Origin: Priestia megaterium
GTDB lineage: Bacteria > Bacillota > Bacilli > Bacillales > Bacillaceae_H
Assembly: GCF_009497655.1 (NCBI RefSeq)
Contig: NZ_CP023317.1
Span: 1,517,501-1,581,500 of the forward strand
Reading direction: 5' to 3'
Length of the DNA: 64,000 nt
Shown: piece by piece, positions 9,110 through 27,370 of the stretch
Numbering within the stretch: position 1 is the stretch's first letter
Layout: each line of letters begins with the position of its first letter
The notes under the pieces: generated by a model
The model's input: the letters and a program-made list of their open reading frames with translations, nothing else
Told to the model about the DNA's origin: nothing
The model's database searches: none
Program-made: the position numbers and the translations under genes

Positions 9110-10159
9110 ATGATACACAATGAACTTTTTGATGTGACAATTATAGGCGGGGGACCGGCTGGCCTTTATTCTGCCTTTTATAGCGGGCTAAGGGAAATGA
9201 AAACAAAGCTGATTGAATATCAGCCAAAACTAGGCGGAAAACTTCACGTTTATCCTGAAAAAATGATTTGGGATGTAGGGGGCCAAACGCCTATTTCCGG
9301 TGCGAAGCTTATTGAACAGCTTGTGGAACAAGGGCTGACGTTTGATCCGACTGTTGTTTTAGATGAGAAGATTGAATCCATTTCTCGCTTGAAAGATGGT
9401 ATTTTCCAGCTGACGGGTTCTTCAGGTGAACATCATTACTCTAAGACCATTATCCTTGCTGTTGGAGGAGGTATTTTAAATCCGCAAAAGCTCAAAATTG
9501 AAGGAGCAGAACGATTTGAAATATCAAACTTAAACTATACGGTTAAATCTCTGCAGCATTTTAAAAATAAAACGGTGATTGTTTCCGGGGGAGGCAATTC
9601 AGCCATTGATTGGGCAAATGAGCTAGAGCCCGTTGCTAAAAAGGTATATATTACGTACCGAAACAGTGAACTAAACGGTCATGAAGCACAAGTAAGACAA
9701 TTAATAAACAGTTCGGCTCGGTGTCTGCTTAACACATCTATTACAAAATTAGTGGCTGATGCGACGCATGAATTTATTGAAAAAGTTGAGCTGACTAATC
9801 ATCAAACCGGTGAGGTTTCTTATTTATCGATTGAAGAAGTTATCATTAATCACGGTTATAAAAGAGATACAGAGCTGTTAAAAAACAGCGAACTACATAT
9901 CAAAACCATTGATGACTATTACGTTGCAGGTAATGCAGCAAGCGAAACGTCTGTAGAAGGTGTATATGCAGCTGGAGATATTCTCATGCACGAAGGAAAA
10001 GTCCATTTGATTACCGGCGCTTTTCAAGATGCTGCTAATGCCGTAAACAAAGCAAAACAATTCGTTCACCCCTCTGCTGCTAAGACAGCTATGGTTTCTT
10101 CTCATAATGAAGTATTTAAAAAGCGTAATTCAATACTAATTAAACAAATGATGAAGTAA
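9110..10159 (+). CDS. Ferredoxin/flavodoxin-NADP reductase-like flavoprotein (YcgT/YumC family)
   Basis: 349-residue FAD/NAD(P)H oxidoreductase of thioredoxin-reductase fold. The FAD site GGGPAGLYSA is at residues about 13-22 and the NAD(P) site SGGGNSAIDWANE about 160-172; a C-terminal FAD contact is in AAGDILMHEGKVHLI. The CxxC redox pair of thioredoxin reductase is absent, which points to the ferredoxin-NADP reductase branch. AAGGAG precedes the ATG. Placed under its own Fur box and divergent from the siderophore importer, it probably supplies electrons for releasing iron from imported Fe(III)-siderophore, as proposed for Fur-controlled YcgT. Confidence 0.82.
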   Translation: MIHNELFDVTIIGGGPAGLYSAFYSGLREMKTKLIEYQPKLGGKLHVYPEKMIWDVGGQTPISGAKLIEQLVEQGLTFDPTVVLDEKIESISRLKDGIFQLTGSSGEHHYSKTIILAVGGGILNPQKLKIEGAERFEISNLNYTVKSLQHFKNKTVIVSGGGNSAIDWANELEPVAKKVYITYRNSELNGHEAQVRQLINSSARCLLNTSITKLVADATHEFIEKVELTNHQTGEVSYLSIEEVIINHGYKRDTELLKNSELHIKTIDDYYVAGNAASETSVEGVYAAGDILMHEGKVHLITGAFQDAANAVNKAKQFVHPSAAKTAMVSSHNEVFKKRNSILIKQMMK

Positions 10160-15001: not shown

Positions 15002-16516
15002 CTACCACCACTTAAACCCATCTTCTTCTAACAAATGCTTTGAAGCTGTTGGTCCCATTGTACCAGCAGAGTAAAAATGAAGAGGAAAGCCCTCATTGTT
15101 AAAAGCTTCTAAAATAGGCTGCACCCATTTCCAAGATAATTCAACTTCTTCCCAATGAGCAAAAAATGTGGAGTCTCCCTGTAGAGCATCAAATAACAGC
15201 AGTTCATAAGCTTCTGGTACTTCTTTTTGATTTGTGGAGAAATTGATAAAAATAGGTTCGATTTTATTGCCATTCAAAGGATTTTTGCTGTTTAATTGCA
15301 GCGAAATACCTTCATTTGGGCTGATTTCGACAACTAAAAGGTTAGGAATGATTTCATCGGCTGTATAAACCTCCTTTAAAGGATGTTTAAATTCAATGAC
15401 GATACGCGTGCATTTTTTACTCATTCTTTTTCCCGTGCGAAGATAGAAAGGCACTCCTTTCCAAAGCTCATGATCAATCCATACCCGGACTGCTATAAAT
15501 GTGTCATTGACGGAAGCAGCATTGATGCCGGGCTCTTCTTTATATCCTATAACGGAACGATTTTGGATTTTTCCCGCTTCGTATTGACCTCTTATGACGT
15601 TCGAATGGATAACCTCTTTTTGTAGAGGGCGAAGGCTTTTCATAATTTTTATCTTTTGTTGGCGAGTCTTTGCGATGTTAAGTGTCTTTGGCAGCTGCAT
15701 GGCAGTCATCATAAGCATTTGAAGCATATGGTTTTGGAACATATCCCTAATTGCACCGGACTGATCATAGTAAGGCGCTCTTTCTTCTACACCAACTGTT
15801 TCACTAGCTGTAATTTGGACATTTGCAACGTAGTGATGATTCCATAGTGCTTGTAAAATAGGGTTTGCAGCTGCTAGAGCCTCCAAATTTTGAATCATTG
15901 GTTTTCCCAGATAGTGGTCGATACGATAAATCTCTTCTTCATTGAACGTTTCAGTAAGCTTTTGATTTAACACTTGAGCAGATTGTAAATCGTGTCCGAA
16001 AGGCTTTTCGATAATAAGACGTTTCCAGCCTTTTGTAGATCCTAATCCGCCGCTATTTATATTTGAAGCAATAACGTCTACAAATTCAGGAGCCACTGAT
16101 AAATAGAAAAGACGATTTTCAGGAATATTTAATTCTGCTTCACCTTCTTGAATAGCATGCAGCAACTGGTCATATCCATCACTGTTGGTAACATCCATTT
16201 TATGATAGCGAACTGTCTTAAGAAATTCTTTTATCTTGGATTCACCTTGGCTAAAGCGCCTTGAAAAAGTCTTTACGGATTCTCCTACATATATTTGAAA
16301 GGCATCATTAGACCAGTTGCTTCTACCCGTACCAACAATAGAAAAGGAAGAAGGCAGCTTTTTATCTAAAAATAAATTATATAACGCAGGAAAAATTTTT
16401 CTTTTAGCTAAATCTCCTGTTGCTCCAAATAAGATAAAGGTCATGGAATCCACTTCTAACGCTTGTGGTAAATGAGACTTGAGACAATTATCACGTGAAC
16501 GAGCTACGCTGTCCAA
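15002..16516 (-). CDS. zwf: Glucose-6-phosphate 1-dehydrogenase
   Basis: 504-residue NADP-dependent enzyme that oxidises glucose 6-phosphate to 6-phosphogluconolactone. Nucleotide-binding motif LFGATGDLAKRK is at residues 29-40, and the substrate/catalytic motif RIDHYLGKPMIQ near residue 197. The full-length C-terminal part ends in GPTASKHLLEEDGFKWW. The start is TTG with AAAGGAGG 7 bases upstream. It is divergent from the formaldehyde regulator gene hxlR; the shared gap holds AGTGTCTA motifs. In the ribulose monophosphate context it supplies NADPH and pentose phosphate for a dissimilatory cycle; that link is inference. Confidence 0.92.
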   Translation of the reverse strand: MDSVARSRDNCLKSHLPQALEVDSMTFILFGATGDLAKRKIFPALYNLFLDKKLPSSFSIVGTGRSNWSNDAFQIYVGESVKTFSRRFSQGESKIKEFLKTVRYHKMDVTNSDGYDQLLHAIQEGEAELNIPENRLFYLSVAPEFVDVIASNINSGGLGSTKGWKRLIIEKPFGHDLQSAQVLNQKLTETFNEEEIYRIDHYLGKPMIQNLEALAAANPILQALWNHHYVANVQITASETVGVEERAPYYDQSGAIRDMFQNHMLQMLMMTAMQLPKTLNIAKTRQQKIKIMKSLRPLQKEVIHSNVIRGQYEAGKIQNRSVIGYKEEPGINAASVNDTFIAVRVWIDHELWKGVPFYLRTGKRMSKKCTRIVIEFKHPLKEVYTADEIIPNLLVVEISPNEGISLQLNSKNPLNGNKIEPIFINFSTNQKEVPEAYELLLFDALQGDSTFFAHWEEVELSWKWVQPILEAFNNEGFPLHFYSAGTMGPTASKHLLEEDGFKWW

Positions 16517-16612
16517 TTGATCTCCTCCTTTATTTTAACGGTCTATTGCAGTGAATATAGTCTTTTACCATCTTTACAGATTACAGTATAGCAGGTACAA
16601 TTTTCCTTTATA

Positions 16613-16642
16613 AGTAGACACTTTATTTTCATATAGTGTCTA
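16613..16642. promoter_or_regulatory. Candidate HxlR operator between zwf and hxlR
   Basis: TAGACACT (16615-16622) and AGTGTCTA (16635-16642) are exact inverted copies, with centres 20 bases apart. On the minus strand the first extends to AAGTGTCTACTT, nearly identical to AAGTGCCTACTT before hxlA. The location between divergent zwf and hxlR suggests one HxlR dimer site serving both. Not proven. Confidence 0.5.
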
Positions 16643-16680
16643 AAACTATACTATTACGCATAAAAAGGGAGGAAAAAGGA

Positions 16681-17046
16681 TTGAGCAGACTTTTTAGCAA
16701 AACGTTTAACTGTGAAAAGGAATTAACGTTGACGATTATTGGAGGCAAGTGGAAAATGTTGATTATGTGGCATCTAGGAAAAGAAGGAACAAAGCGATTT
16801 GGTGAGTTAAAATCTATGATGCCGGGAATTACTCAGCGAATGTTAGTAAGTCAGCTGCGAGAATTAGAAGAAGATCAAATCGTTCACCGAAAAGTCTATC
16901 CGGTTGTACCTCCAAAAGTTGAATATTCCTTGACTGAGCACGGGAGAAGCTTGATGCCCATTCTTGAAAGCATGGACGAGTGGGGAAAAAATTATATGGA
17001 AACCTTTATAGAACCTGAAATGAATAACTCCACACATATGGGATAA
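16681..17046 (+). CDS. hxlR: HxlR, formaldehyde-responsive activator of the RuMP genes
   Basis: 121-residue winged-helix regulator of the HxlR family. The core [20 protein letters not shown], then [16 protein letters not shown] and [17 protein letters not shown], is almost identical in pattern to B. subtilis HxlR, including the conserved Cys that reacts with formaldehyde. TTG at 16681 is chosen because GGGAGG lies about 8-9 bases before it; an upstream GTG at 16636 lacks a ribosome site and overlaps the operator motif. In B. subtilis HxlR activates hxlAB upon formaldehyde stress. Here hxlA follows 203 bases downstream. Confidence 0.9.
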
Positions 17047-17145
17047 AATCTTTTCTTGAGAAGGTTACAAAAACGCCTTTATTATTCAGAATTTTCTAAA
17101 ATAAATACAAGTGATAAGATACACCGAAGCATCCATAGTATATTT

Positions 17146-17177
17146 TTAGTGACTATATGTTTTAAAAGTGCCTACTT
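17146..17177 (+). promoter_or_regulatory. Candidate HxlR operator upstream of hxlA
   Basis: AGTGACTA (17148-17155) and AGTGCCTA (17167-17174) lie 19 bases apart, centre to centre, about 75 bases upstream of hxlA. The second is part of AAGTGCCTACTT, matching the zwf/hxlR box at 11 of 12 bases. The spacing suits an activator bound on one face of the helix. Confidence 0.5.
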
Positions 17178-17249
17178 TTTTTTTGAAAGTAACGGTTTTA
17201 CAATGAATTCATGCTAGGCAACCCCATTTAATGAAGGAGTGAAGCAGGT

Positions 17250-17891
17250 ATGGAACTTCAATTAGCATTGGATCTTGTAAATATTTCAGAGGCAAAAGAA
17301 GTAGTGCAGGAGGTTCAAGAGTATATCGATATTGTAGAAATTGGTACTCCGGTTGTGATTAACGAAGGGCTAAAAGCAGTCAAAGAAATCAAGGAAGCAT
17401 TTCCGTCTTTAAAGGTATTAGCTGATTTAAAAATTATGGATGCAGGTGCTTATGAAGTCATGAAAGCTTCTGAAGCGGGTGCTAGTATTATTACCATACT
17501 TGGCGCTACTAACGATTCGACTATAAAAGGCGCTGTAGAAGAGGCCAAAAAACAAGGAACACAAATTCTTGTCGATATGATTAATGTAAAAAACCTTGAA
17601 CAACGTGCAAAAGAAGTCGATGCACTCGGTGTTGACTATATTTGTGTACACACAGGGTATGATCTTCAAGCTGAAGGAGAGACTCCGTTTGAGCAGCTTC
17701 AAACGATTAAACGAGTTGTGAAAAATGCAAAAACAGCGGTGGCAGGAGGTATTAAACTGAATACACTTCCTGAAGTCGTGCAGTCACAGCCGGATCTTGT
17801 GATTGTAGGCGGGGGGATTACAAGTGAAAAAGACAAAAGAAACGTTGCAGAAGAAATGAAAAAAGTAGTCAAACAAGCAACTTTGGTCTAA
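17250..17891 (+). CDS. hxlA: 3-hexulose-6-phosphate synthase
   Basis: 213-residue (beta/alpha)8 enzyme of the OMP-decarboxylase superfamily that condenses formaldehyde with ribulose 5-phosphate to 3-hexulose 6-phosphate. It begins MELQLALDLVNI like B. subtilis HxlA. It carries the Asp-x-Lys-x-x-Asp motif in LADLKIMDAGAYE, the HTGYD segment (HxGxD) and the phosphate-binding ends AVAGGIKLNTLPEV and LVIVGGGI. RBS GAAGGAG. In B. subtilis hxlB (isomerase) follows directly; here a terminator follows and no isomerase gene occurs in the window, so HxlB must be encoded elsewhere for the pathway to work. Confidence 0.93.
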   Translation: MELQLALDLVNISEAKEVVQEVQEYIDIVEIGTPVVINEGLKAVKEIKEAFPSLKVLADLKIMDAGAYEVMKASEAGASIITILGATNDSTIKGAVEEAKKQGTQILVDMINVKNLEQRAKEVDALGVDYICVHTGYDLQAEGETPFEQLQTIKRVVKNAKTAVAGGIKLNTLPEVVQSQPDLVIVGGGITSEKDKRNVAEEMKKVVKQATLV

Positions 17892-17945
17892 AAATAAGCA
17901 AAAGTATTTAAGCCTTCAAAATTAATTAATCGGTAAATGGTTTAA

Positions 17946-17982
17946 AAAGAAGATAGCTAAGTTATTTTAGCTATCTTCTTTC
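17946..17982 (+). terminator. Hairpin terminator after hxlA
   Basis: AAGAAGATAGCTAA (17947-17960) and TTAGCTATCTTCTT (17967-17980) form a 14-base-pair stem followed by T residues. It separates hxlA from the betaine cluster. Confidence 0.85.
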
Positions 17983-18169
17983 CGTCATTTTTGGTATAAC
18001 CATTCATTGATAAGTGTCATTTTGACAGATAGATAGTTTCTTTAAAATTCGTTATTCGAGAGAAAAAAACAGCGATTTTTCTGGGATTTTAAAGTTAAGA
18101 AAGCGTTATCCGAACATTAGCGGAAGAAAGTGCAAAAAAAATCTATGTCACACTTTTTAACAAAATACT

Positions 18170-18198
18170 TTGAAAATTAAGAAAATTAAAAATATAAT
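18170..18198 (+). promoter_or_regulatory. SigA-type promoter of the demethylation gene cluster
   Basis: TTGAAA (18170-18175) and TATAAT (18193-18198) are spaced by 17 bases and lie about 50 bases before the dimethylglycine-oxidase-like gene. A weak cre-like sequence, AAGAAAGCGTTATCC (18097-18111, 13 of 15 consensus positions), lies upstream. Nothing else is seen in the rest of the 360-base gap 17892-18251. Confidence 0.6.
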
Positions 18199-18251
18199 TA
18201 ACTATCGACAATATTTAACACCTTCAAACCAAAAAAGGAGGGAGATATGAA

Positions 18252-20678
18252 GTGATGAAACATAAGAAAATAGTAGTGATAGGAGCTGGAATTGTCGGGT
18301 GCAGCATTGCCTACTATTTAAGTAAAATGGGGCAACGAAACATAACAGTGATTGAGCAAGGCCCTTTGCTAGAAACAGGAGGATCTACCTCTCACGCTCC
18401 GGGGCTTGTATTTCAGCTTAGCTTTTCAAAAATCCTGACAACACTAGCTTCTCAAACAGTCGAGACCTTTAAAGAGTTGAGTACAGATGAACAGCGCTCG
18501 TTTTATCCTGTCGGCAGTTTAGAAGTTGCCCGTACACCAGAGCGATTAGAAGATCTAAAGAGAAAGGCTGGTGTTGCCAGCTCATGGGGAATCGAAGCTT
18601 TTCTTCTTTCACCGCAGGAATGCGCGGAAAAAAATTCGTTGATTTGTCCTGATCGTATTTGCGGAGGTCTCTATGTTCCGTCAGACGGTATTGCTAAACC
18701 TTTGCATGCCGTTGATAAAATGATTCGTTTTTCTAAAGAGTGCGGAGTAGAGTTTTACGGTCATACAGAAGTGACGGATATTGAAGTGACAAAGGGTCAA
18801 GTAAAAGCAGTGTACACAAGTGTCGGGAAATTCGAAGCAGATGTAATCGTATGCTGTGCTGGATTTTGGGGACCTCGCATCGGAGAAATGGTCGGTGTAA
18901 CGATCCCTCTTCAGCCAATGGCTCATCAATATGTGTTTACAAATGATTTACTTGAGTTGAACGGAGAAACGGAAGAAGCCGCCACTCCTCTTATTCGAGA
19001 TCAAGATAATTCAATTTATTTTCGTCAAGTAGAAAAAGGGCTTGGGATTGGATCATATCAGCATGAGCCGTTTCCAGTCGAACTCAGTGATATTACAAAA
19101 TACGGAGAAACAAAAGAAATGCCTTCTGTTAAACCTTTTACACCAAAAGATTTTGAAAAACCGTGGGAAGATTCAATAGAGTTAATTCCGGCATTAAAAC
19201 AAACGGGAATAAAAAAAGGAATGAACGGCATTTTTTCATTCACGCCCGATGGTATGCCGCTGCTTGGTGAATCACAAACGGTACAGGGATTTTGGGTAGC
19301 AGAAGCTATATGGGTAACGCACTCTGCAGGTGTCGCAAAACAAATGGCTGAATGGATGATGAATGGTGCGCCGACTGTGGATTTAGAGCTATGCGACATT
19401 AATCGTTTCGATACGTATGCATGCAGCCCTGCTTATTACAAACAGCGGTCTATTGAAGAGTATGAAGAGGTTTATAGTATTCACCATCCATTTATGCAGC
19501 GAAAAGTATCGCGAAACATGCGCGTGAGTCCATTTTATATGCGTCAACAAGAACTGAAAGCTTATTTTAATGAAAAAGCAGGATGGGAGCAGCCCCAGTG
19601 GTATGAAGCTAACTATCCGCTTATATCTACTTATGAAAAGATGATGGTAATAAGAAATGGATGGGCTGCTGAACATTGGTCACCAATTATTGAAGCTGAA
19701 CATTTGCATACTCGTCAGCACGCAGCTCTTTACGATACAACGGCAGCAAAGAAAAGGTTAGAAATTAAAGGAGAAGGAGCTCTCCAGTTTTTACAGAAGC
19801 TAACGACAGGAAATATAGACATTGCAGTAGGTCAAAGCATACGCACGTGTATGTTGCATGAGCGAGGCGGCATAAAAGATCAAATAACGGTTATTCGCAA
19901 AAATATATCCACTTTCTTGATTGTTTGTACGGGAGCTGTAGAAGCAAGCTGGATTCAAAAACACGTGCCACACAGCGATCAAGTTGTTTTTCAAGATGTA
20001 ACGTCAGGGACATGCAGTTTAGCATTAATTGGCCCTAAAGCTACAGGAGTAATGAAGTCCATGGTTCAACGCTCAGACCTTGGCAACACTTGGATTGAAG
20101 GGCAAGCGAAAACGCTGTTTATCGAAAATGTTTCAGTCCTTGCTCTGCGTGATTCCTGCGGGGGAATGGAGAGCTGGGAATTAATTACGACTTCCGATCA
20201 AGGTCTGAATTTATGGGATTTATTAATGGAAGAAGGACAGCCTTATCAGCTGATTGCTGGGGGAGACCGAGCTCTTGAAAACCTTCGAATTGAATCTTTT
20301 TCGTTAAAAAGCGGGAAAGACTTTTGGAGCGAACATCATCCATATGAAGTCGACCTTCATGAAATGGTTGATTTAACAAAACCAGTTTTTATTGGAAAAG
20401 AGGCATTGCTTGATCGTCAGCGAAAAGATTCTGAAACAGTATTAGCGACGCTCGTATTAGATGATCCTTCAGCGATAGTAATGGGATATGAACCGGTCTT
20501 TTATGGAGAAACGGCCCTCGGATTTGTGACAAGTGCTGGCTATTCATACAGCTTAGGCAAAGGAATTGTACACACCTTATTATCTCAAGCTGTACATGAA
20601 GAAATGGTTTTAGAAGTTGAATACTTTGGTCAGCGTTATAAAGCAGCAATGATGACACACTCCCCAGCGGTAGTTTAA
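18252..20678 (+). CDS. Dimethylglycine oxidase-like flavoenzyme with GcvT-type C-terminal domain
   Basis: 808-residue two-domain protein like Arthrobacter dimethylglycine oxidase (about 830). The N-terminal DAO domain has the FAD fold VVIGAGIVGCSIAYYLS (8-24) and GGSTSHAPGLVFQ, whose His48 corresponds to the His that binds FAD covalently in this family. The C-terminal half (about 430-800) is a GcvT/aminomethyltransferase domain that in the family binds tetrahydrofolate. Here it deviates: GGIKDQITV has Gln544 where relatives have Asp, and the usual GExGWE appears as GGMESWE (637-643). Expected reaction: N,N-dimethylglycine to sarcosine plus formaldehyde. GTG start with GGAGGG 8 bases upstream. 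First gene of the betaine cluster. Confidence 0.82.
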   Translation: MMKHKKIVVIGAGIVGCSIAYYLSKMGQRNITVIEQGPLLETGGSTSHAPGLVFQLSFSKILTTLASQTVETFKELSTDEQRSFYPVGSLEVARTPERLEDLKRKAGVASSWGIEAFLLSPQECAEKNSLICPDRICGGLYVPSDGIAKPLHAVDKMIRFSKECGVEFYGHTEVTDIEVTKGQVKAVYTSVGKFEADVIVCCAGFWGPRIGEMVGVTIPLQPMAHQYVFTNDLLELNGETEEAATPLIRDQDNSIYFRQVEKGLGIGSYQHEPFPVELSDITKYGETKEMPSVKPFTPKDFEKPWEDSIELIPALKQTGIKKGMNGIFSFTPDGMPLLGESQTVQGFWVAEAIWVTHSAGVAKQMAEWMMNGAPTVDLELCDINRFDTYACSPAYYKQRSIEEYEEVYSIHHPFMQRKVSRNMRVSPFYMRQQELKAYFNEKAGWEQPQWYEANYPLISTYEKMMVIRNGWAAEHWSPIIEAEHLHTRQHAALYDTTAAKKRLEIKGEGALQFLQKLTTGNIDIAVGQSIRTCMLHERGGIKDQITVIRKNISTFLIVCTGAVEASWIQKHVPHSDQVVFQDVTSGTCSLALIGPKATGVMKSMVQRSDLGNTWIEGQAKTLFIENVSVLALRDSCGGMESWELITTSDQGLNLWDLLMEEGQPYQLIAGGDRALENLRIESFSLKSGKDFWSEHHPYEVDLHEMVDLTKPVFIGKEALLDRQRKDSETVLATLVLDDPSAIVMGYEPVFYGETALGFVTSAGYSYSLGKGIVHTLLSQAVHEEMVLEVEYFGQRYKAAMMTHSPAVV

Positions 20679-20708
20679 TTGATCAATCGAAAGGCAGGAG
20701 AAATGCAG

Positions 20709-21869
20709 ATGTCAACACATTATGATGTCATTATTATCGGATTAGGAGCTATGGGGAGTACGGCTGCTTATCAGCTCGCCAAAAAAGGGCAGCGGGTATT
20801 GGGGTTAGAACAATACGGTCCTGCTCATGATCTAGGATCGAGTCACGGCGGTTCTAGAATTATTCGGCAGTCGTATTTTGAAGACCCTGCTTATGTTCCA
20901 TTGTTGCTTCGCGCCTACGAATTGTGGAATGAAATTGAAAGAGAAAGCGGTCAAGAAATTCTTACGGTTACCGGTGGACTTATGATGGGACCTCCTGATA
21001 GCTTGACGGTTTCTGGAAGCATCGAAAGCTCTAAACAGTGGAATCTTGCGTATGAGATTCTAGAAGCAAAGGATATTTACAAACGGTTTCCGGTATTTAC
21101 ACCTTCACCTGCTACGGTTGCTCTATATGAAGAAAAAGCTGGATTCGTTAGGCCGGAAGCAAGCGTATATACTCACCTTCTTCAAGCAGAAAAATACGGA
21201 GCTGAGCTTCATTTTTTTGAAGAAGTGGTGTCGTGGGAAGCCCATCCTTCTGGTGAAGGCGTGCGTGTTGTAACAGCTAATGGAATATATGAAGCTGGAA
21301 AAATCATTATTTCTGCAGGCGCCTGGGCACCCGATTTATTACGGGAATTAGGTGTTAGCTTACAAGTAGAGCGTCATGTGCAAATGTTTTTTGAACCAAC
21401 ACAAGGAATAGACGTTTTTTCAGTGGGAAAACAGCCGATTTATATTTGGGAAGCAGATGATTATGTACAGTTGTATGGTTTCCCTTCTTTTGGATTAAAG
21501 GCTGAAGGAGCAAAAGTGGCGTTTTTCCGAAAAGGAACGGCGTGTACGCCGGAAACGATTGATCGAAATATATATGAAGATGAAGTGAACATGATGCGGC
21601 ACTATCTAGCTCAAGGTCTTCCGCAGCTCAACGGTCGGTTTTTACAAGGGAAAACGTGCATGTATACCAATACACCAGATGAACATTTTGTCATTTCGCT
21701 GCATCCTGAATATCCTCAAGTAGCAATTGCAGCGGGATTTTCCGGACATGGTTTTAAGTTTGCAAGCGTAGTAGGAGAGATTTTAGCAGATTTAGTGACA
21801 GAGGGAAAAACCAATCACCCAATTGATTTGTTTGCTCCGCAGCGATTTGCGGCGAACAAAATAGTATAA
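20709..21869 (+). CDS. soxA: Monomeric sarcosine oxidase
   Basis: 386-residue flavoenzyme that demethylates sarcosine to glycine, formaldehyde and H2O2. FAD-binding motif IIIGLGAMGSTAAYQLA; GSSHGGSRIIRQSYFED matches the flavin-contact region of Bacillus MSOX. The covalent-flavin Cys is in TCMYTNTPDEHF (Cys317), and the substrate/oxygen-site Lys is in FSGHGFKFA. Length fits MSOX (389). The start at 20709 has GGAG 8 bases upstream; in-frame ATG/TTG codons before it are too close to or upstream of that site. The preceding gene ends 30 bases upstream. An N-methyltryptophan oxidase role is less likely given the neighbours. Confidence 0.87.
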   Translation: MSTHYDVIIIGLGAMGSTAAYQLAKKGQRVLGLEQYGPAHDLGSSHGGSRIIRQSYFEDPAYVPLLLRAYELWNEIERESGQEILTVTGGLMMGPPDSLTVSGSIESSKQWNLAYEILEAKDIYKRFPVFTPSPATVALYEEKAGFVRPEASVYTHLLQAEKYGAELHFFEEVVSWEAHPSGEGVRVVTANGIYEAGKIIISAGAWAPDLLRELGVSLQVERHVQMFFEPTQGIDVFSVGKQPIYIWEADDYVQLYGFPSFGLKAEGAKVAFFRKGTACTPETIDRNIYEDEVNMMRHYLAQGLPQLNGRFLQGKTCMYTNTPDEHFVISLHPEYPQVAIAAGFSGHGFKFASVVGEILADLVTEGKTNHPIDLFAPQRFAANKIV

Positions 21870-21935
21870 ATCGTCGTCAGCTCTTGCGAATGGTTCTATT
21901 TAAATGTTTCTAAAGAAGCGAAGGAGGAATAGCAG

Positions 21936-23084
21936 ATGGTTATGGAACATGGTTTAGTAAATGATAATGGGAGACTTGAGCCCACGTTGAAAGGAGAGCT
22001 GTATACATCTTCGGACATTTTTAAGTTAGAAAAAGATCATATATTTTCTAAATCATGGAGTTTAGTTGCATTTGAATACGAAATAGCAGAACCAGGACAA
22101 TATATTACAACGAGAGTTGAAGGCGAAAATATTTTAATTACTAGAGGAAAAGACCATATACTGCGAGGATTTTTAAACGTATGTCGGCATCGAGGAGCTA
22201 AGCTGTGCAGCCAAGCATCCGGTAAAGCAGGGGTCATTCGCTGTCCGTATCATTCGTGGAGCTATAGCTTAGATGGTGATTTAGTAGGTGTTCCTAACAC
22301 AAGCCACTGTCGAGAAGAACTCGTGCATAACGAAAGTTACGGACTAACATCCGTTCACATTGAAGTGTGGCACGGCATGGTTTGGGTTAATTTATCAGAC
22401 AATCCGATATCTGTTGAATATCAGCTAGACGCACAAATTTTTGATCGTTTTGGAGAGCTTTATACGTTTGCTAGGTATGAAATTCAAAATTTAAAATCCG
22501 CTCATCGTGAAGAGTACGAAGTCGAGGCAAACTGGAAGCTTATTGTAGAAAACTTTCAAGAATGTTATCACTGTTCCTCTATTCACCCTGAGCTTACGGC
22601 AACGCTCCCTGAATTTCGTTCGGGAGTCGGCACTCAAAATTCAGTAGGCGGTGGAGCTAAGTTTGGCAATGAGTTAGAAGGTTTTTCAATTAGCGGGAAA
22701 GGAAGCCGTCCTATGTTAAAAGGGTTGCTTCCTGAAGATGACCGCACGTATTTTGGCATTACCGTTCTGCCGCTTGTATTTATCAACTTAACACCGGATC
22801 ACGTTATTATTCATCGTATTATTCCAATCAGTGCAGAAAAGTCCAAAGTAATTTGCGAATGGTTATTCGACCCGGAAGAAATGGCTAAGCCTGATTTTGA
22901 CCCAAAAGATGCCGTGGAATTATTTCACCGCGTTAATTTACAAGATTTTGAAGCGTGTGAGTGGTGTCAAGAAAATATGAGCTCAAAATCTTATAAAGAA
23001 GGAGGGATTTTAGTACCTATCGAACAGCACGTTTCGCATTTTTACAATTATGTATTAGAAGCAATCGGTATGAAGGTCGAATAG
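21936..23084 (+). CDS. gbcA: Rieske non-heme iron oxygenase, glycine betaine demethylase type (GbcA-like)
   Basis: 382-residue alpha subunit of a ring-hydroxylating-type oxygenase. Rieske 2Fe-2S ligands are Cys83 and His85 (CRHRGAKLC) and Cys103 and His106 (CPYHSWSY). The mononuclear iron ligands His212 and His217 are in ENFQECYHCSSIHPEL, with the third ligand Asp likely in VNLQDFEACEWCQ. GbcA and choline monooxygenase are the relatives with this pattern. Expected reaction: glycine betaine plus O2 to dimethylglycine plus formaldehyde. RBS AGGAGG. It lies between sarcosine oxidase and the betaine transporter. No reductase partner (GbcB) is encoded nearby. Confidence 0.82.
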   Translation: MVMEHGLVNDNGRLEPTLKGELYTSSDIFKLEKDHIFSKSWSLVAFEYEIAEPGQYITTRVEGENILITRGKDHILRGFLNVCRHRGAKLCSQASGKAGVIRCPYHSWSYSLDGDLVGVPNTSHCREELVHNESYGLTSVHIEVWHGMVWVNLSDNPISVEYQLDAQIFDRFGELYTFARYEIQNLKSAHREEYEVEANWKLIVENFQECYHCSSIHPELTATLPEFRSGVGTQNSVGGGAKFGNELEGFSISGKGSRPMLKGLLPEDDRTYFGITVLPLVFINLTPDHVIIHRIIPISAEKSKVICEWLFDPEEMAKPDFDPKDAVELFHRVNLQDFEACEWCQENMSSKSYKEGGILVPIEQHVSHFYNYVLEAIGMKVE

Positions 23085-23095
23085 TAAATAGAAGC

Positions 23096-23126
23096 GGTCT
23101 GGCACATTATCTCGGTGTGCCAGACC
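23096..23126 (+). promoter_or_regulatory. Intercistronic hairpin in the betaine cluster
   Basis: GGTCTGGCACA (23096-23106) pairs with TGTGCCAGACC (23116-23126) around a 9-base loop. There is no following T run, so it is more likely an mRNA stability or partial-termination element than a full terminator between the oxygenase and transporter genes. Confidence 0.55.
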
Positions 23127-23165
23127 ATCTCTAACAATCTACTTTAAAAATAAGGGGGAAATAAA

Positions 23166-24419
23166 TTGAGTACAAGCTCTAAACTAACAGAACCCATTAT
23201 CCGCGTTACCGATGTTTCAAAAGTGTTTGGCCGTCAAAAAGAACAGGCTCTTAAGCTGAGAGAGTCTGGACAAAGTAAATATGAAGTCGAACAAGCTACT
23301 AAGACAACCGTTGCTATTTACAATGCTCATTTCGAAGTGAAAAAGGGAGAAACCTTTGTGTTAATTGGATTATCAGGAAGCGGTAAATCTACTTTACTTC
23401 GATGTTTGAACGGACTTATAGAACCAACAGAAGGGACGGTATATCTAGAAAATACAGATATTTCTCATATGCCAAAAAGACAGCTTCAGCAAGTACGAAG
23501 AAATAAAATTGGAATGGTATTCCAAAATGTAGGCCTTCTTCCAAACCGCACCGTAATTGACAATATTACGTTCGGTCTAGAAATTCAAGGCGTATCAGCA
23601 AGCGAAAGGGAAAAGCGAGGGAAAGAGGCGCTTGAAATGGTGGGGTTAAATGGACAAGCTTATAAAAGAATTTATGAATTATCAGGAGGTATGCAGCAGC
23701 GGGTTGGATTAGCGAGAGCCCTTGCTTCTGAACAAGAGATTTTGCTGATGGATGAGCCTTTTTCGGCGTTAGATCCTCTTATTCGAAGAGATATGCAAAA
23801 GCTATTTCTTGATATTCAAGGAGAAGTACAAAAAACAGTTATCTTTGTAACGCATGATCTAGATGAAGCATTAACTTTAGGGCACCGGGCTGCCGTAATG
23901 AAAGACGGAGAGATTGTACAGCTTGGAACGGCTGAAGATATTTTAAGTCAACCCGCAACCGATTATGTAAAACTGCTTGTTCAAGACGTTAATTACGGCA
24001 AAATCCGCCTTGCTAAAGACGCTGTTATTCCGGTAGAAACGGCTGCCTATGAGTATGAATCACCACAAGTTATATTAAGAAGAATGAGAACCAATCATTT
24101 ATCTACGATTTTTGTTCTTGATAGTTCTGACCGCTTATTAGGTATGATGAGCATCTATACAGTGATGGAGCTTATTGAAGCTCATAAGCATGATTTAAAA
24201 GGAAAAGCATTGACACAGCCGCATTGCGTCAATCCTGATATGTCTTTACAAGAAATGATTCCTCTATTTACAGACAGTCATTCGCCTGTAGTAATTGTTG
24301 ATAATCATCATCGCCTACAAGGTATGATTTCCCCGAGCACTCTTATTGCAAATCTCACTGAACGTATTGCAGTGACCGAGCAGCAAGAAGTTAAATCATA
24401 TCAAGTGGAGGTTCGATAA
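23166..24419 (+). CDS. opuAA: Glycine betaine/proline ABC transporter ATPase with CBS domains (OpuAA-like)
   Basis: 417-residue ATPase of the OpuA/ProU family. Walker A GLSGSGKSTLLRCLN, signature LSGGMQQRVGLARALA, Walker B ILLMDEPFSALDPLIRRDMQ and the H-loop FVTHDLDEA are present. Two C-terminal CBS units (about 285-400: LRRMRTNHLSTIFVLD and MIPLFTDSHSPVVIVDN) may sense ionic strength, as in other OpuA proteins. TTG start with AAGGGGGAA upstream. Length equals B. subtilis OpuAA (418). Next to demethylation enzymes it may serve catabolism as well as osmoprotection. Confidence 0.9.
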   Translation: MSTSSKLTEPIIRVTDVSKVFGRQKEQALKLRESGQSKYEVEQATKTTVAIYNAHFEVKKGETFVLIGLSGSGKSTLLRCLNGLIEPTEGTVYLENTDISHMPKRQLQQVRRNKIGMVFQNVGLLPNRTVIDNITFGLEIQGVSASEREKRGKEALEMVGLNGQAYKRIYELSGGMQQRVGLARALASEQEILLMDEPFSALDPLIRRDMQKLFLDIQGEVQKTVIFVTHDLDEALTLGHRAAVMKDGEIVQLGTAEDILSQPATDYVKLLVQDVNYGKIRLAKDAVIPVETAAYEYESPQVILRRMRTNHLSTIFVLDSSDRLLGMMSIYTVMELIEAHKHDLKGKALTQPHCVNPDMSLQEMIPLFTDSHSPVVIVDNHHRLQGMISPSTLIANLTERIAVTEQQEVKSYQVEVR

Positions 24420-24421
24420 AT

Positions 24422-25285
24422 ATGATGGTGAATGCTGCGATGATTCCTCGTATTCCTTTAGATAAATGGGCAAATTCATTTGTTGATTACATGATTGATA
24501 GTTTTTCAGGTGTATTTACTGGAATCAACCAGATAATGACCAGTTTAATCAGCAGCCTTGAATGGGCATTGACAGCCTCTCCTCCGCTAGTAACTGTCCT
24601 TGTTTTTGTTCTATTAGCGCTATGGTTGACAGATTGGAAGATAGCTGCATTTACGTGTTTTGGGTTACTTCTTATTATTAGCTTGGATTTATGGGAAGCA
24701 TCAATGCTGACCTTATCTCTCGTTTTAGCTTCTACGATTATCTCACTTTTATTCGGCGTTCCTTTAGGCATATTATCACACCGCTTTAACAAAGTGGGGG
24801 CAGTCATAAAGCCTATTCTTGATATTATGCAAACGATGCCTGCTTTTGTTTACTTAATTCCTTCCGTACTTTTATTTGGATTAGGGAATGTTACAGCTCT
24901 TATTGCTACGTTTATTTTCGCAATGCCGCCTGCCGTTCGTCTGACGCTGCTTGGGCTTCAGCAAGTTCCGCACACCACTTTAGAAGCAGCGGAAGCTTTT
25001 GGAGCGACAGAATGGCAAAAATTAATTAAAGTCCAGCTGCCGCTCGCTTTGCCTATGATTATGTCGGGTGTAAACCAAGTTATTATGCTATCACTTTCGA
25101 TGGTTGTTATTTCTTCCATGGTCGGTGCGGGAGGCCTAGGTGCAGAGGTATTACGAAGCATCAGTATGCTGGATGTAGGCTTAGGGTTTATCGGTGGGAT
25201 TGCGGTTGTTATTATTGCCGTTATCTTAGATCGTTTAACGCATCTTTCTACTCGAAAAAGCCAAGATATTCAATCAAGCAAATAA
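24422..25285 (+). CDS. opuAB: Glycine betaine ABC transporter permease (OpuAB/ProW-like)
   Basis: 287-residue membrane subunit with about six to seven hydrophobic helices. The inner-membrane-component signature for ATPase coupling is EAAEAFGATEWQKLIKVQLPLALP. The N-terminal part PLDKWANSFVDYMID is typical of ProW/OpuAB. It starts 2 bases after the ATPase stop codon, showing tight coupling; GGAGG lies within the end of the ATPase gene. Confidence 0.9.
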   Translation: MMVNAAMIPRIPLDKWANSFVDYMIDSFSGVFTGINQIMTSLISSLEWALTASPPLVTVLVFVLLALWLTDWKIAAFTCFGLLLIISLDLWEASMLTLSLVLASTIISLLFGVPLGILSHRFNKVGAVIKPILDIMQTMPAFVYLIPSVLLFGLGNVTALIATFIFAMPPAVRLTLLGLQQVPHTTLEAAEAFGATEWQKLIKVQLPLALPMIMSGVNQVIMLSLSMVVISSMVGAGGLGAEVLRSISMLDVGLGFIGGIAVVIIAVILDRLTHLSTRKSQDIQSSK

Positions 25286-25306
25286 AATGGATAAAGGTGG
25301 GATTAG

Positions 25307-26188
25307 ATGAAACATTCAAAAAAAATTTCTTTTATTATGCTAACAATCGTCGTCATGCTGCTTGTCTCTGCATGCGGAAATAGCAATACGGCAAGCGGCA
25401 CGACGACTAAAAAAGAAATTACAATTGGGTACATACCATGGGACGAAGCCGTAGCCGTTACGTTTTTATGGAAGGAATTATTAGAGGAAAAAGGCTATAA
25501 AGTTAAAGCAGTTCAAAGTGACGTAGCCCCGCTTTTCTCAGGAGTTGCTCAAGGAAATATTGATTTATTTTTGGATGTATGGATGCCTACTACCCATAGT
25601 TCTTACATGAAAAGATTCGGAAAACAAGTAGACGTTCTCGGCACTTGGTACGATCAAGCAGACAGCGGATTAGCCGTTCCCGACTATGTAGACGCGCAGT
25701 CGATAGGTGATTTAAAAAATAAGAAAGGGGAGTTTAACGGAAAGATTATTAGCATTGAACCGGGATCTGGAATCAATGGTCTTACGAAAGACCATGCCAT
25801 GCCCAGCTATGGGTTAACAGACTGGAATTTAGTAGAGAGCAGTACAGCTGCGATGCTATCGGAATTGGATAAAGCCATTGCTAATAAAGAACCTATTGTT
25901 GTTACGTTATGGCGCCCGCACTGGGCTTTTGAAAAGTATAATCTCAGATACTTAAAAGATCCCAAAAATACGATGAATCCAACTGGACCTGAGAAAATAC
26001 AGTCAATCAGTAAAAAAGCTTTTAAGGAAGATTATCCAGAAGCAGCAAAGTGGCTTAAAGATTTTTCGATTAGCGCTGATCAATTGGCATCATTAGAATC
26101 AGAAATTAACAGTGCAAAAGACGAAACAAAAGGCGTGAAAAACTGGATTTCTAAAAATAAGAAAGTGACGGAAAGCTGGGTAAAGTAA
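25307..26188 (+). CDS. opuAC: Glycine betaine-binding lipoprotein (OpuAC-like)
   Basis: 293-residue extracellular binding protein anchored by the lipobox LVSAC. The mature protein begins its domain with KKEITIGYIPWDEAVAVTFLW; Trp residues in PWDE, DVWMPTTHSSY and TLWRPHWAFEKYN can form the aromatic box that holds the trimethylammonium group. Length equals B. subtilis OpuAC. It is 21 bases after the permease gene and followed by a terminator, completing a three-subunit importer. Confidence 0.9.
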   Translation: MKHSKKISFIMLTIVVMLLVSACGNSNTASGTTTKKEITIGYIPWDEAVAVTFLWKELLEEKGYKVKAVQSDVAPLFSGVAQGNIDLFLDVWMPTTHSSYMKRFGKQVDVLGTWYDQADSGLAVPDYVDAQSIGDLKNKKGEFNGKIISIEPGSGINGLTKDHAMPSYGLTDWNLVESSTAAMLSELDKAIANKEPIVVTLWRPHWAFEKYNLRYLKDPKNTMNPTGPEKIQSISKKAFKEDYPEAAKWLKDFSISADQLASLESEINSAKDETKGVKNWISKNKKVTESWVK

Positions 26189-26317: not shown

Positions 26318-27370
26318 GTGGCAATCGATAGAATCTGTACAATCGGACCTGTTAGTAATAAGAAAGATGTACTAGAGAGACTGTTGGAAAAAGGAATGAC
26401 AATTGCTCGGCTGAATTTATCTCATGGGTCGCATGAAAGTCATAAAACAATTATAGATACGTTAAGATCTTTAAATTCCTCTATTCAAATTTTAGGAGAT
26501 TTACAAGGTCCTAAAATTAGACTTGGAGTGATAAAGTCAAAAGAAATAGTGTTAAAAGAAGGCGCATCTTTTATTTTATATACAGAGCAGATGTCAGGAA
26601 ATGAAAAAGGAGCCAGCGTTGACTATAAGGGTATCGTGAAGGATGTTCAAACAGGAAGCAAAATCTTAATCAATGACGGTCAAGTAGAACTGGCTGTTGA
26701 AGGAGTAGAAGAAGATACACTTGTCACAAAGGTAAAAAAGGGCGGATCTATTTCGTCTCATAAAGGCGTGAATTTGCCAGGTGCTCGCGTCGGTTTGCCG
26801 GCCATTACTGAAAAAGACAAAAAAGACATCGTATTCTTATTGAAAGAAAAAGTAGATTTTCTTGCTTGTTCGTTCGTAAGAACCCCTGAACATTTAAAAG
26901 ACATTAAAGATTTTATCCATTTAAAACATCTAAATGCACCAAAGCTGATTGCGAAAGTGGAAACAATGGAAGCTATAGAAAATTTCAAGCAAATATGTGA
27001 AGAAGGCGATGGAATTATGATTGCACGAGGAGATTTAGGGGTAGAGCTACCGTATGAATGGATTCCTTTGCTCCAAAAAATATTAATTCATGAATGCAGC
27101 TTGCACGATAAATATGTGATCACCGCGACACAAATGCTTCAATCAATGGTGAGCAGCGCAATTCCTACAAGAGCCGAGGTGACGGATGTGTTTCAGGCAG
27201 TACTGGACGGCACGAATGCAGTGATGCTTTCTGCTGAAACAGCAGCTGGGAAATATCCGATTGAAAGCATGGAAACACTTTATAAAGTATCACATCTTGC
27301 TGAAACGATTCAAAATAAAAGAGTTGCGAGCTCCGCAGAGATTTTGGCAATGTTAAAGAGCTCGAGATAA
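26318..27370 (+). CDS. Short pyruvate kinase paralogue lacking the C-terminal domain
   Basis: 350-residue protein covering only the catalytic barrel and B domain of pyruvate kinase. Present: ICTIGPVS, ARLNLSHGSHE, GDLQGPKIRLG, the catalytic Lys in LIAKVETMEAIENF, the metal/phosphate region IMIARGDLGVELPYEWIP, ATQMLQSM and PTRAEVTDVFQAVLDGTNAVMLSAETAAGKYP. Bacillus housekeeping Pyk is about 585 residues, with a C-domain and a PEP-utiliser-like extension; both are absent, although the frame ends cleanly with its own stop. GTG start with AAGGATGG 7 bases upstream. It may be an active unregulated enzyme or a specialised paralogue. Confidence 0.82.
   Translation: MAIDRICTIGPVSNKKDVLERLLEKGMTIARLNLSHGSHESHKTIIDTLRSLNSSIQILGDLQGPKIRLGVIKSKEIVLKEGASFILYTEQMSGNEKGASVDYKGIVKDVQTGSKILINDGQVELAVEGVEEDTLVTKVKKGGSISSHKGVNLPGARVGLPAITEKDKKDIVFLLKEKVDFLACSFVRTPEHLKDIKDFIHLKHLNAPKLIAKVETMEAIENFKQICEEGDGIMIARGDLGVELPYEWIPLLQKILIHECSLHDKYVITATQMLQSMVSSAIPTRAEVTDVFQAVLDGTNAVMLSAETAAGKYPIESMETLYKVSHLAETIQNKRVASSAEILAMLKSSR

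Follow-up and report, generated by a model that had tools for sequence, protein, structure and literature searches.

Genes and transcription units of the locus

We analyzed a 64-kb stretch of the 5.24-Mb Priestia megaterium genome (G000:C1:1517501-1581500, hereafter the window), in which genes for a predicted glycine betaine demethylation pathway lie beside hxlA, the gene for the formaldehyde-fixing 3-hexulose-6-phosphate synthase. The initial annotation had listed zwf, hxlR, hxlA, a dimethylglycine-oxidase-like gene, a sarcosine oxidase gene, a Rieske oxygenase gene and an OpuA-type transporter, in one direction from hxlR onward, and this gene set is borne out (Table 1). All cluster genes are intact open reading frames (ORFs) at the coordinates first annotated, the family models agree with their names, and hxlR and every cluster gene 3' of it lie on the plus strand, with zwf divergent on the minus strand. 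The genome has four zwf copies, including that of the window. The transporter combines an ATPase above its family cut-off with an OpuAC domain, and is probably a betaine importer of the OpuA/ProU type. No hxlB adjoins the window hxlA, so the two do not stand together as an hxlAB operon; copies of hxlB above cut-off lie elsewhere in the genome (G000:C1:874599 and 2902973), for which reason the window hxlA-zwf pair resembles a reduced version or a booster. The hxlA-hxlB pair at 2.9 Mb is doubtful as a formaldehyde locus (~30% identical, no HxlR-type site, neighbors that by eye resemble sugar-acid genes), but nonetheless scores above both family cut-offs (hxlA 212.8 against 200, hxlB 221 against 160).

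The initial annotation had taken these genes for one block. We rejected a single co-transcribed unit as the simplest reading, given that zwf is divergent, that hxlA is preceded by an HxlR-type promoter of its own and followed by a terminator-like hairpin, and that the betaine operon has another promoter, without an HxlR-type site. The hairpin and this promoter-like site both lie in the 360-bp gap between hxlA and the dimethylglycine oxidase (DMGO)-type gene, the promoter-like site being the sole 11-of-12 match in the scanned region; transcription of the betaine operon is therefore probably separate from that of hxlA. Read-through from hxlA is possible, because the T run of the hairpin is weak and such sites are frequent by chance in the scan: as classes, terminator-like sites are somewhat above chance (15, against 9.8 +/- 2.5 in shuffles) and promoter-like sites near it (37, against 31.9 +/- 5.1). 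The surroundings of the -10 element, AATATAAT, are common to all seven Priestia DMGO upstream regions examined. At 18140-18225, a TGTCA-type dyad seen by eye accompanies AATATAAT 5' of the DMGO gene, an arrangement common in Priestia that suggests a separate regulator of the betaine operon; no such regulator was found. The gene 5' of DMGO is PmfR/PucR-like in one Robertmurraya cluster (L015) and LysR-type in one from Sporolactobacillus (L014).

Table 1. Features of the formaldehyde and betaine genes, in window positions
Feature	Position	Strand	Evidence
zwf, glucose-6-phosphate dehydrogenase	15002..16516	-	TIGR00871 550 bits, cut-off 401
HxlR-type promoter site, direction zwf	16585..16637	-	0 mismatches to pattern; matrix score 24.8
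hxlR, DUF24/MarR-type formaldehyde-sensing activator (predicted)	16636..17046	+	probable start 16681; FNCEKEL motif present
HxlR-type promoter site, direction hxlA	17152..17204	+	0 mismatches; matrix score 42.2
hxlA, 3-hexulose-6-phosphate synthase	17250..17891	+	TIGR03128 298.3 bits, cut-off 200
Terminator-like hairpin 3' of hxlA	17946..17981	+	16 pairs, weak T run
Promoter-like site 5' of the betaine operon	18170..18198	+	TTGAAA-17-TATAAT, 11-of-12 match
DMGO (dimethylglycine-oxidase-type flavoprotein)	18252..20678	+	DAO, FAO_M, GCV_T, GCV_T_C; folate site altered
MSOX, monomeric sarcosine-oxidase-type flavoenzyme	20679..21869	+	family models, solved relatives
Rieske N-demethylase, oxygenase subunit, probable betaine monooxygenase	21936..23084	+	family models, iron-site residues
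OpuA/ProV-type transporter ATPase	23166..24419	+	TIGR01186 351.9 bits, cut-off 326.6
Transporter permease	24422..25285	+	family models
Betaine-type substrate-binding protein	25307..26188	+	OpuAC domain

Linkage of hxlA to betaine clusters and HxlR-type sites

Whether the adjacency is confined to this strain, which the initial annotation had named as a possible refutation, was surveyed, and it recurs in several Bacillota lineages. Among the best 80 of 582 Rieske relatives, all confirmed, nine (L011-L019) come from Bacillota; adding the window, a plasmid locus (L161) and L095-L098 from four genus mates gives 15 clusters. Left aside were the Rieske gene L010 of genome G007 (31% identical, no orthologue) and genomes G285 and G365, which have hxlA at the same coordinates as the genomes with L019 and L011. 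In 10 of the 15 clusters an hxlA is found no more than 15 kb from the Rieske gene, representing 6 of 9 lineages with varied layouts and orientations. Counting the plasmid and P. endophytica as one, since they have a common gene order, makes this 5 of 8; the lineages are not fully independent. The distance is ~4 kb in the window and the four mates, ~1.3 kb in Scopulibacillus and ~11 kb in P. endophytica (both with hxlB, zwf and gnd), ~15 kb on the plasmid and ~4.5 kb in Bacillus sp. OV166. P. abyssalis has hxlA ~4 kb upstream of the Rieske gene and an hxlAB-hxlR-zwf cassette ~6 kb downstream. The OV166 gene (L012 4832-5469, equal to L206 7869-8506) is split into two frames, with intact hxlA copies elsewhere in that genome.

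Genomes with such clusters hold 1-6 hxlA matches, giving a chance of at most ~3% per genome that one falls within 15 kb. In a control search at 1e-8, no hxlA match was found in 71 non-Bacillota Rieske loci (L020-L090, median 16.8 kb), against 3 of the 9 Bacillota loci L011-L019, that of P. endophytica falling just outside its locus. This control supports the linkage, which looks to be more than chance. Close Rieske orthologues are themselves rare: at E<=1e-80 the order has them in 7 of 397 genomes, and five of these belong to the same genus as the window.

The window HxlR aligns with that of Bacillus subtilis (7bzd, E 4.6e-56), including both Cys11 and Lys13 of the FNCEKEL motif, the residues that formaldehyde cross-links according to the available part of PMC7835342. 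A 53-base pattern is common to the hxlA upstream regions, ACTATNTG-N5-AAAGTGNSTACTT-N21-TANNNT, and its position 5' of hxlA and hxlAB marks it as the putative HxlR site. At up to three mismatches it occurs at five places in this genome, and free of mismatches only 5' of the canonical hxlAB, the window hxlA and the window zwf; the reversed pattern gave no match here and one over all 10 genus genomes, in which the further matches to the pattern were not all assigned to genes. A looser pattern (6 matches, against 4 in its reversed control) is no proof by itself. Two three-mismatch sites at G000:C1:766282 and 2279613 (L212, L213) were not counted; by eye they adjoin an HxlR paralogue with an MFS-like ORF and a nitroreductase-like ORF, respectively, have similar counterparts in genus mates, and probably belong to other DUF24 regulators.

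When the window was scored with a matrix built from nine hxlA sites, the window excluded, the hxlA and zwf sites (Table 1) were followed by a next place at -0.1, the maximum of 12 random 64-kb sequences being 6.3. Sites at zwf in relatives score 46.4 (L161, where the site precedes a zwf-gnd-pgi row), 36.0 (L143), 41.2 (L017) and 25.7 (L011), and no site was found within the fetched loci of the other three zwf copies of this genome. Sites also lie 5' of glyA in L161 (42.7) and P. endophytica (L211, 39.0), where glyA, sda and gcv are co-directional. Separately, sites scoring 48.4 (L161 17568-17620) and 50.1 (L019 5863-5915) precede a carbon-nitrogen hydrolase/GNAT operon divergent from DMGO.

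The plasmid locus carries the whole block in ~29 kb (P. megaterium NZ_CP071467.1, 18074-56500, mobilizable, from a hypersaline site): hxlB-hxlA-hxlR; zwf-gnd-pgi-prx-trxA-trxB; DMGO-MSOX-Rieske with a BCCT transporter gene; and glyA-sda-gcv. The peroxiredoxin, trxA and trxB genes follow zwf-gnd-pgi in the same direction, and their products could spend NADPH on H2O2. Within the plasmid collection, no other record covers 80% of the stretch from hxl to trxB (near mode), and one Nonomuraea record (45% identical) is the only other with the Rieske gene at E<=1e-70.

Folate site and predicted demethylating enzymes

The window DMGO-type protein aligns over its full length with Arthrobacter dimethylglycine oxidase (E 3.4e-205) and has the corresponding domain architecture, and H48 and H225, which we take to be flavin-site histidines, are invariant in 11 of 11 sequences. 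For the folate site, 13 Bacillota DMGOs (the window, three mates, L161, L011-L016, L018 and L019; L098 and the partial L017 omitted) were aligned with seven other DMGO-type proteins (Arthrobacter, Nonomuraea, two haloarchaea, two alphaproteobacteria and one Propionibacteriales metagenome-assembled genome) and two GcvT, the GcvTs agreeing with at least 5 of the 7 non-Bacillota proteins in 67 columns. Three columns, presumed from GcvT and DMGO work to bind folate, hold a Tyr, Asp552 of Arthrobacter DMGO and the Glu of GELGWE; the residue is kept in none of the 13 Bacillota proteins, against 7/7 of the others and 2/2 GcvT. The window protein has R531, Q544 and M639 there, and so lacks the three GCV_T residues of a tetrahydrofolate (THF)-dependent dimethylglycine oxidase. 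The Asp552 column holds Ala in 3gsi and Glu in human and rat dimethylglycine dehydrogenase (DMGDH), for which reason we rejected its change as sole proof of folate loss; the two mammalian enzymes also lack the Tyr of the first column, and of the three residues they keep only the Glu of GELGWE. Nor is Gln at the Asp552 column tied to hxlA linkage, as P. abyssalis and P. endophytica have Glu. Because the folate-site Glu of GCV_T is lost and the flavin-site histidines are kept, the Bacillota DMGOs may release free formaldehyde, and the window DMGO is likely an active oxidase that does so; methylene-THF, allowed as a product by the initial annotation, is argued against for this protein by the same residues. 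In agreement with a formaldehyde-releasing DMGO, purU, reported in other betaine clusters (available part of PMC12093977), is unlinked in all eight genomes searched: it lies on another contig or >1 Mb away in six and is absent from two, both Robertmurraya.

Downstream of DMGO, the MSOX-type protein has sarcosine oxidases as its ten best solved relatives. The Rieske protein contains CxH..CxxH and a His-His-Asp iron site, with C83, H85, C103, H106, H212, H217 and D337, presumably the cluster and iron ligands, invariant in 14 of 14 sequences. A TrxB-like reductase adjoins the Rieske gene in L013, L019 and L161; the window ORF 9110-10159 is a weak candidate for a Rieske reductase, being 41% identical to the L019-linked reductase while a 76% match sits elsewhere in the genome. 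We consider betaine the probable substrate because the neighbors of related clusters point to it. In Sporolactobacillus (L016) genes adjoining the cluster encode the choline dehydrogenase GbsB, at 722 bits against a cut-off of 550, and a betaine-aldehyde dehydrogenase, at 707 against 669; a CudC-type regulator there falls slightly below cut-off (216 against 218). P. endophytica (L019) has a BCCT transporter by the cluster (betaine model 632, cut-off 650) together with GcvPA, GcvPB, GcvT and the serine dehydratase alpha subunit, all four above cut-off.

Proposed pathway and its alternatives

From the observed gene content, linkage, sites and residue changes we infer substrate, free-formaldehyde release, induction and flux as follows. 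The betaine operon (18252-26188) would import glycine betaine, which the Rieske enzyme would convert to dimethylglycine, DMGO to sarcosine and MSOX to glycine. The three methyls would all leave as free formaldehyde, since the folate site of DMGO is changed and MSOX is without a folate domain, and with them two H2O2, at a cost of one NAD(P)H per betaine. Formaldehyde would then cross-link HxlR (Cys-Lys) and so activate hxlA and the window zwf copy; HxlA would join formaldehyde to ribulose 5-phosphate, and HxlB, encoded elsewhere, would give fructose 6-phosphate. With zwf and a gnd regenerating ribulose 5-phosphate, formaldehyde could be oxidized to CO2 with a gain of NAD(P)H, or its carbon retained. 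In the chemistry of the ribulose monophosphate (RuMP) pathway, the products of hxlAB, pgi, zwf and gnd complete a cycle in which the oxidation of formaldehyde to CO2 yields two NAD(P)H. We thus propose, with a probability of about 0.64, that formaldehyde couples two regulons: a betaine pathway independent of folate would produce it, and the RuMP sink that it induces would remove it.

The initial annotation had formaldehyde from three demethylations of imported betaine fixed into sugar phosphates, with zwf feeding the cycle. Gene content and the HxlR-type promoter shared by zwf and hxlA agree with that scheme, but there is no local hxlB, and the gene set of the relatives (hxlAB, zwf, gnd and once pgi) fits oxidation to CO2 no worse than assimilation. 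A wider version, which we advance tentatively and at somewhat less than even odds, is a pathway in Bacillota that does without folate: each betaine methyl would become free formaldehyde and be oxidized in a dissimilatory RuMP cycle (hxlAB, pgi, zwf, gnd) under HxlR control. HxlR would also control the glycine-to-pyruvate genes, and the trait, transferable by plasmid, would let a non-methylotroph draw energy from the methyl groups of betaine through a cycle typical of methylotrophs.

Several observations weigh against the two-regulon reading. No HxlR-type site directed at DMGO was found, the OV166 hxlA near the Rieske gene is broken, and five of the 15 clusters (FJAT-29882, two Robertmurraya and two Sporolactobacillus) have neither an hxl gene nor a site in the fetched stretch, the best matrix score in L013-L016 and L018 being -5.9 or lower. 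The nearest hxlA of L013 is ~70 kb off if contig C6 is the same contig, those of L015 and L018 lie on other contigs, and absence in L014 and L016 is judged from the fetched flanks. Since zwf-hxlA cassettes also occur without a betaine cluster, in genome G004 (Rieske absent) and on contig C7 of G006, the cassette is a general formaldehyde response. Together with the separate promoters of hxlA and the betaine operon, the unlinked clusters and lone cassettes favor a stress module that lies here by chance beside an ordinary betaine operon, with the methyls going mainly to folate or formaldehyde dehydrogenases. This we consider unlikely in view of the linkage in six of nine lineages in varied layouts against none of 71 non-Bacillota loci, the sites 5' of glyA in L161 and L211, and the folate-site Glu lost in 13/13.

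The folate evidence also has its counterweights: the altered site is found in all five clusters without linked hxl as well, and human DMGDH, which does use THF, has Glu at the Asp column and Ile at the Tyr column, so those two changes are not decisive. DMGO could therefore still yield methylene-THF through an altered site, leaving HxlA to handle formaldehyde from the Rieske and MSOX steps only, and both the tolerance of Glu at the Asp column by human and rat DMGDH and the retained GCV_T fold fit such a case. We find it somewhat unlikely, with the GELGWE Glu absent throughout the Bacillota set and purU not linked.

As to the substrate, ‘GbcA-like’, the initial label of the Rieske protein, is right only in the broader sense of a Rieske N-demethylase: the protein reaches 215.4 bits against the GbcA model NF058607, below its cut-off of 670, and its closest solved relatives are carnitine monooxygenase and then, lower, an entry named demethylase, 4qup. 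The MSOX-type protein falls below the cut-off of TIGR01377 (soxA_mon; 316.7 against 479.65 bits) and passes the N-methyltryptophan oxidase model NF008425 (481 against 257). A GbcB-type reductase was not found, the single match in this genome to FAD_binding_6, which we assume to mark GbcB, lying in a 417-aa frame elsewhere. The scores and solved relatives would suit an operon that degrades another quaternary ammonium or N-methyl compound, such as proline betaine or carnitine, with a different Rieske specificity. With dimethylglycine oxidase and sarcosine-oxidase-type genes within one operon, choline-to-betaine genes adjoining the cluster in L016 and glycine-to-pyruvate genes in L019 and L161, we regard this as very unlikely.

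Betaine demethylation, HxlR/hxlAB and the use of RuMP enzymes against demethylation formaldehyde are already known. The linkage of hxlA to betaine genes is new, as are HxlR-type sites 5' of zwf and of glyA, the altered DMGO folate site and the block on the plasmid, all of them predicted from sequence. No description of the gene combination was found in titles or abstract openings of the open-licence papers listed. Aerobic betaine catabolism in Pseudomonas and Vibrio natriegens employs gbcA, gbcB, dgcAB, soxBDAG, glyA and purU and likewise runs by Rieske demethylation to dimethylglycine, sarcosine, glycine, serine and pyruvate (available part of PMC12093977), whereas the window has a single-chain DMGO without the folate Glu, a monomeric MSOX and adjoining RuMP genes, with no linked purU and no GbcB-type reductase found. 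Arthrobacter has dmg and soxBDAG-glyA-purU operons (Meskys 2001, as cited in the accessible text of PMC4941409 and PMC11577753); its DMGO, of which a plasmid-borne Arthrobacter copy is 43.2% identical to the window protein, matches in architecture but retains the folate residues that the window protein lacks. The B. subtilis response (PMC7835342 and PMC11577753, as far as available) has the identical HxlR sensor motif and hxlA, while here zwf also has a site (in L161, zwf-gnd-pgi and glyA) and the locus adjoins a formaldehyde-producing pathway. In Burkholderia cepacia TM1, also a non-methylotroph, the RuMP enzymes Hps and Phi remove formaldehyde from a demethylated growth substrate (PMC8879981, in its available part); substrate (vanillate) and host differ. 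According to the portions available, betaine as nitrogen source supports growth of Bacillus thuringiensis HD73 and likewise of its sox mutants (PMC4941409), and SAR11 oxidizes the methyl groups of betaine, the proposed route being linked to THF (PMC3160333).

Betaine is an abundant osmolyte, and the described aerobic routes pass the later methyls to folate. If the two-regulon reading holds, these bacteria would have dropped the folate step and made formaldehyde both the hub and the signal for its own removal. Beyond hxlAB, the HxlR regulon would take in the oxidative pentose phosphate pathway, with glycine use added in relatives, and a natural plasmid-borne gene set would be at hand for formaldehyde tolerance and synthetic methylotrophy work in Bacillus.

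Elsewhere in the window, an Rfam scan gave no match at the gathering threshold. Immediately 3' of the transporter, 26318-27370 encodes a short pyruvate-kinase-like protein (PRK06739, 350 aa), which was not found in two genus mates, is partial in another and is present in one.

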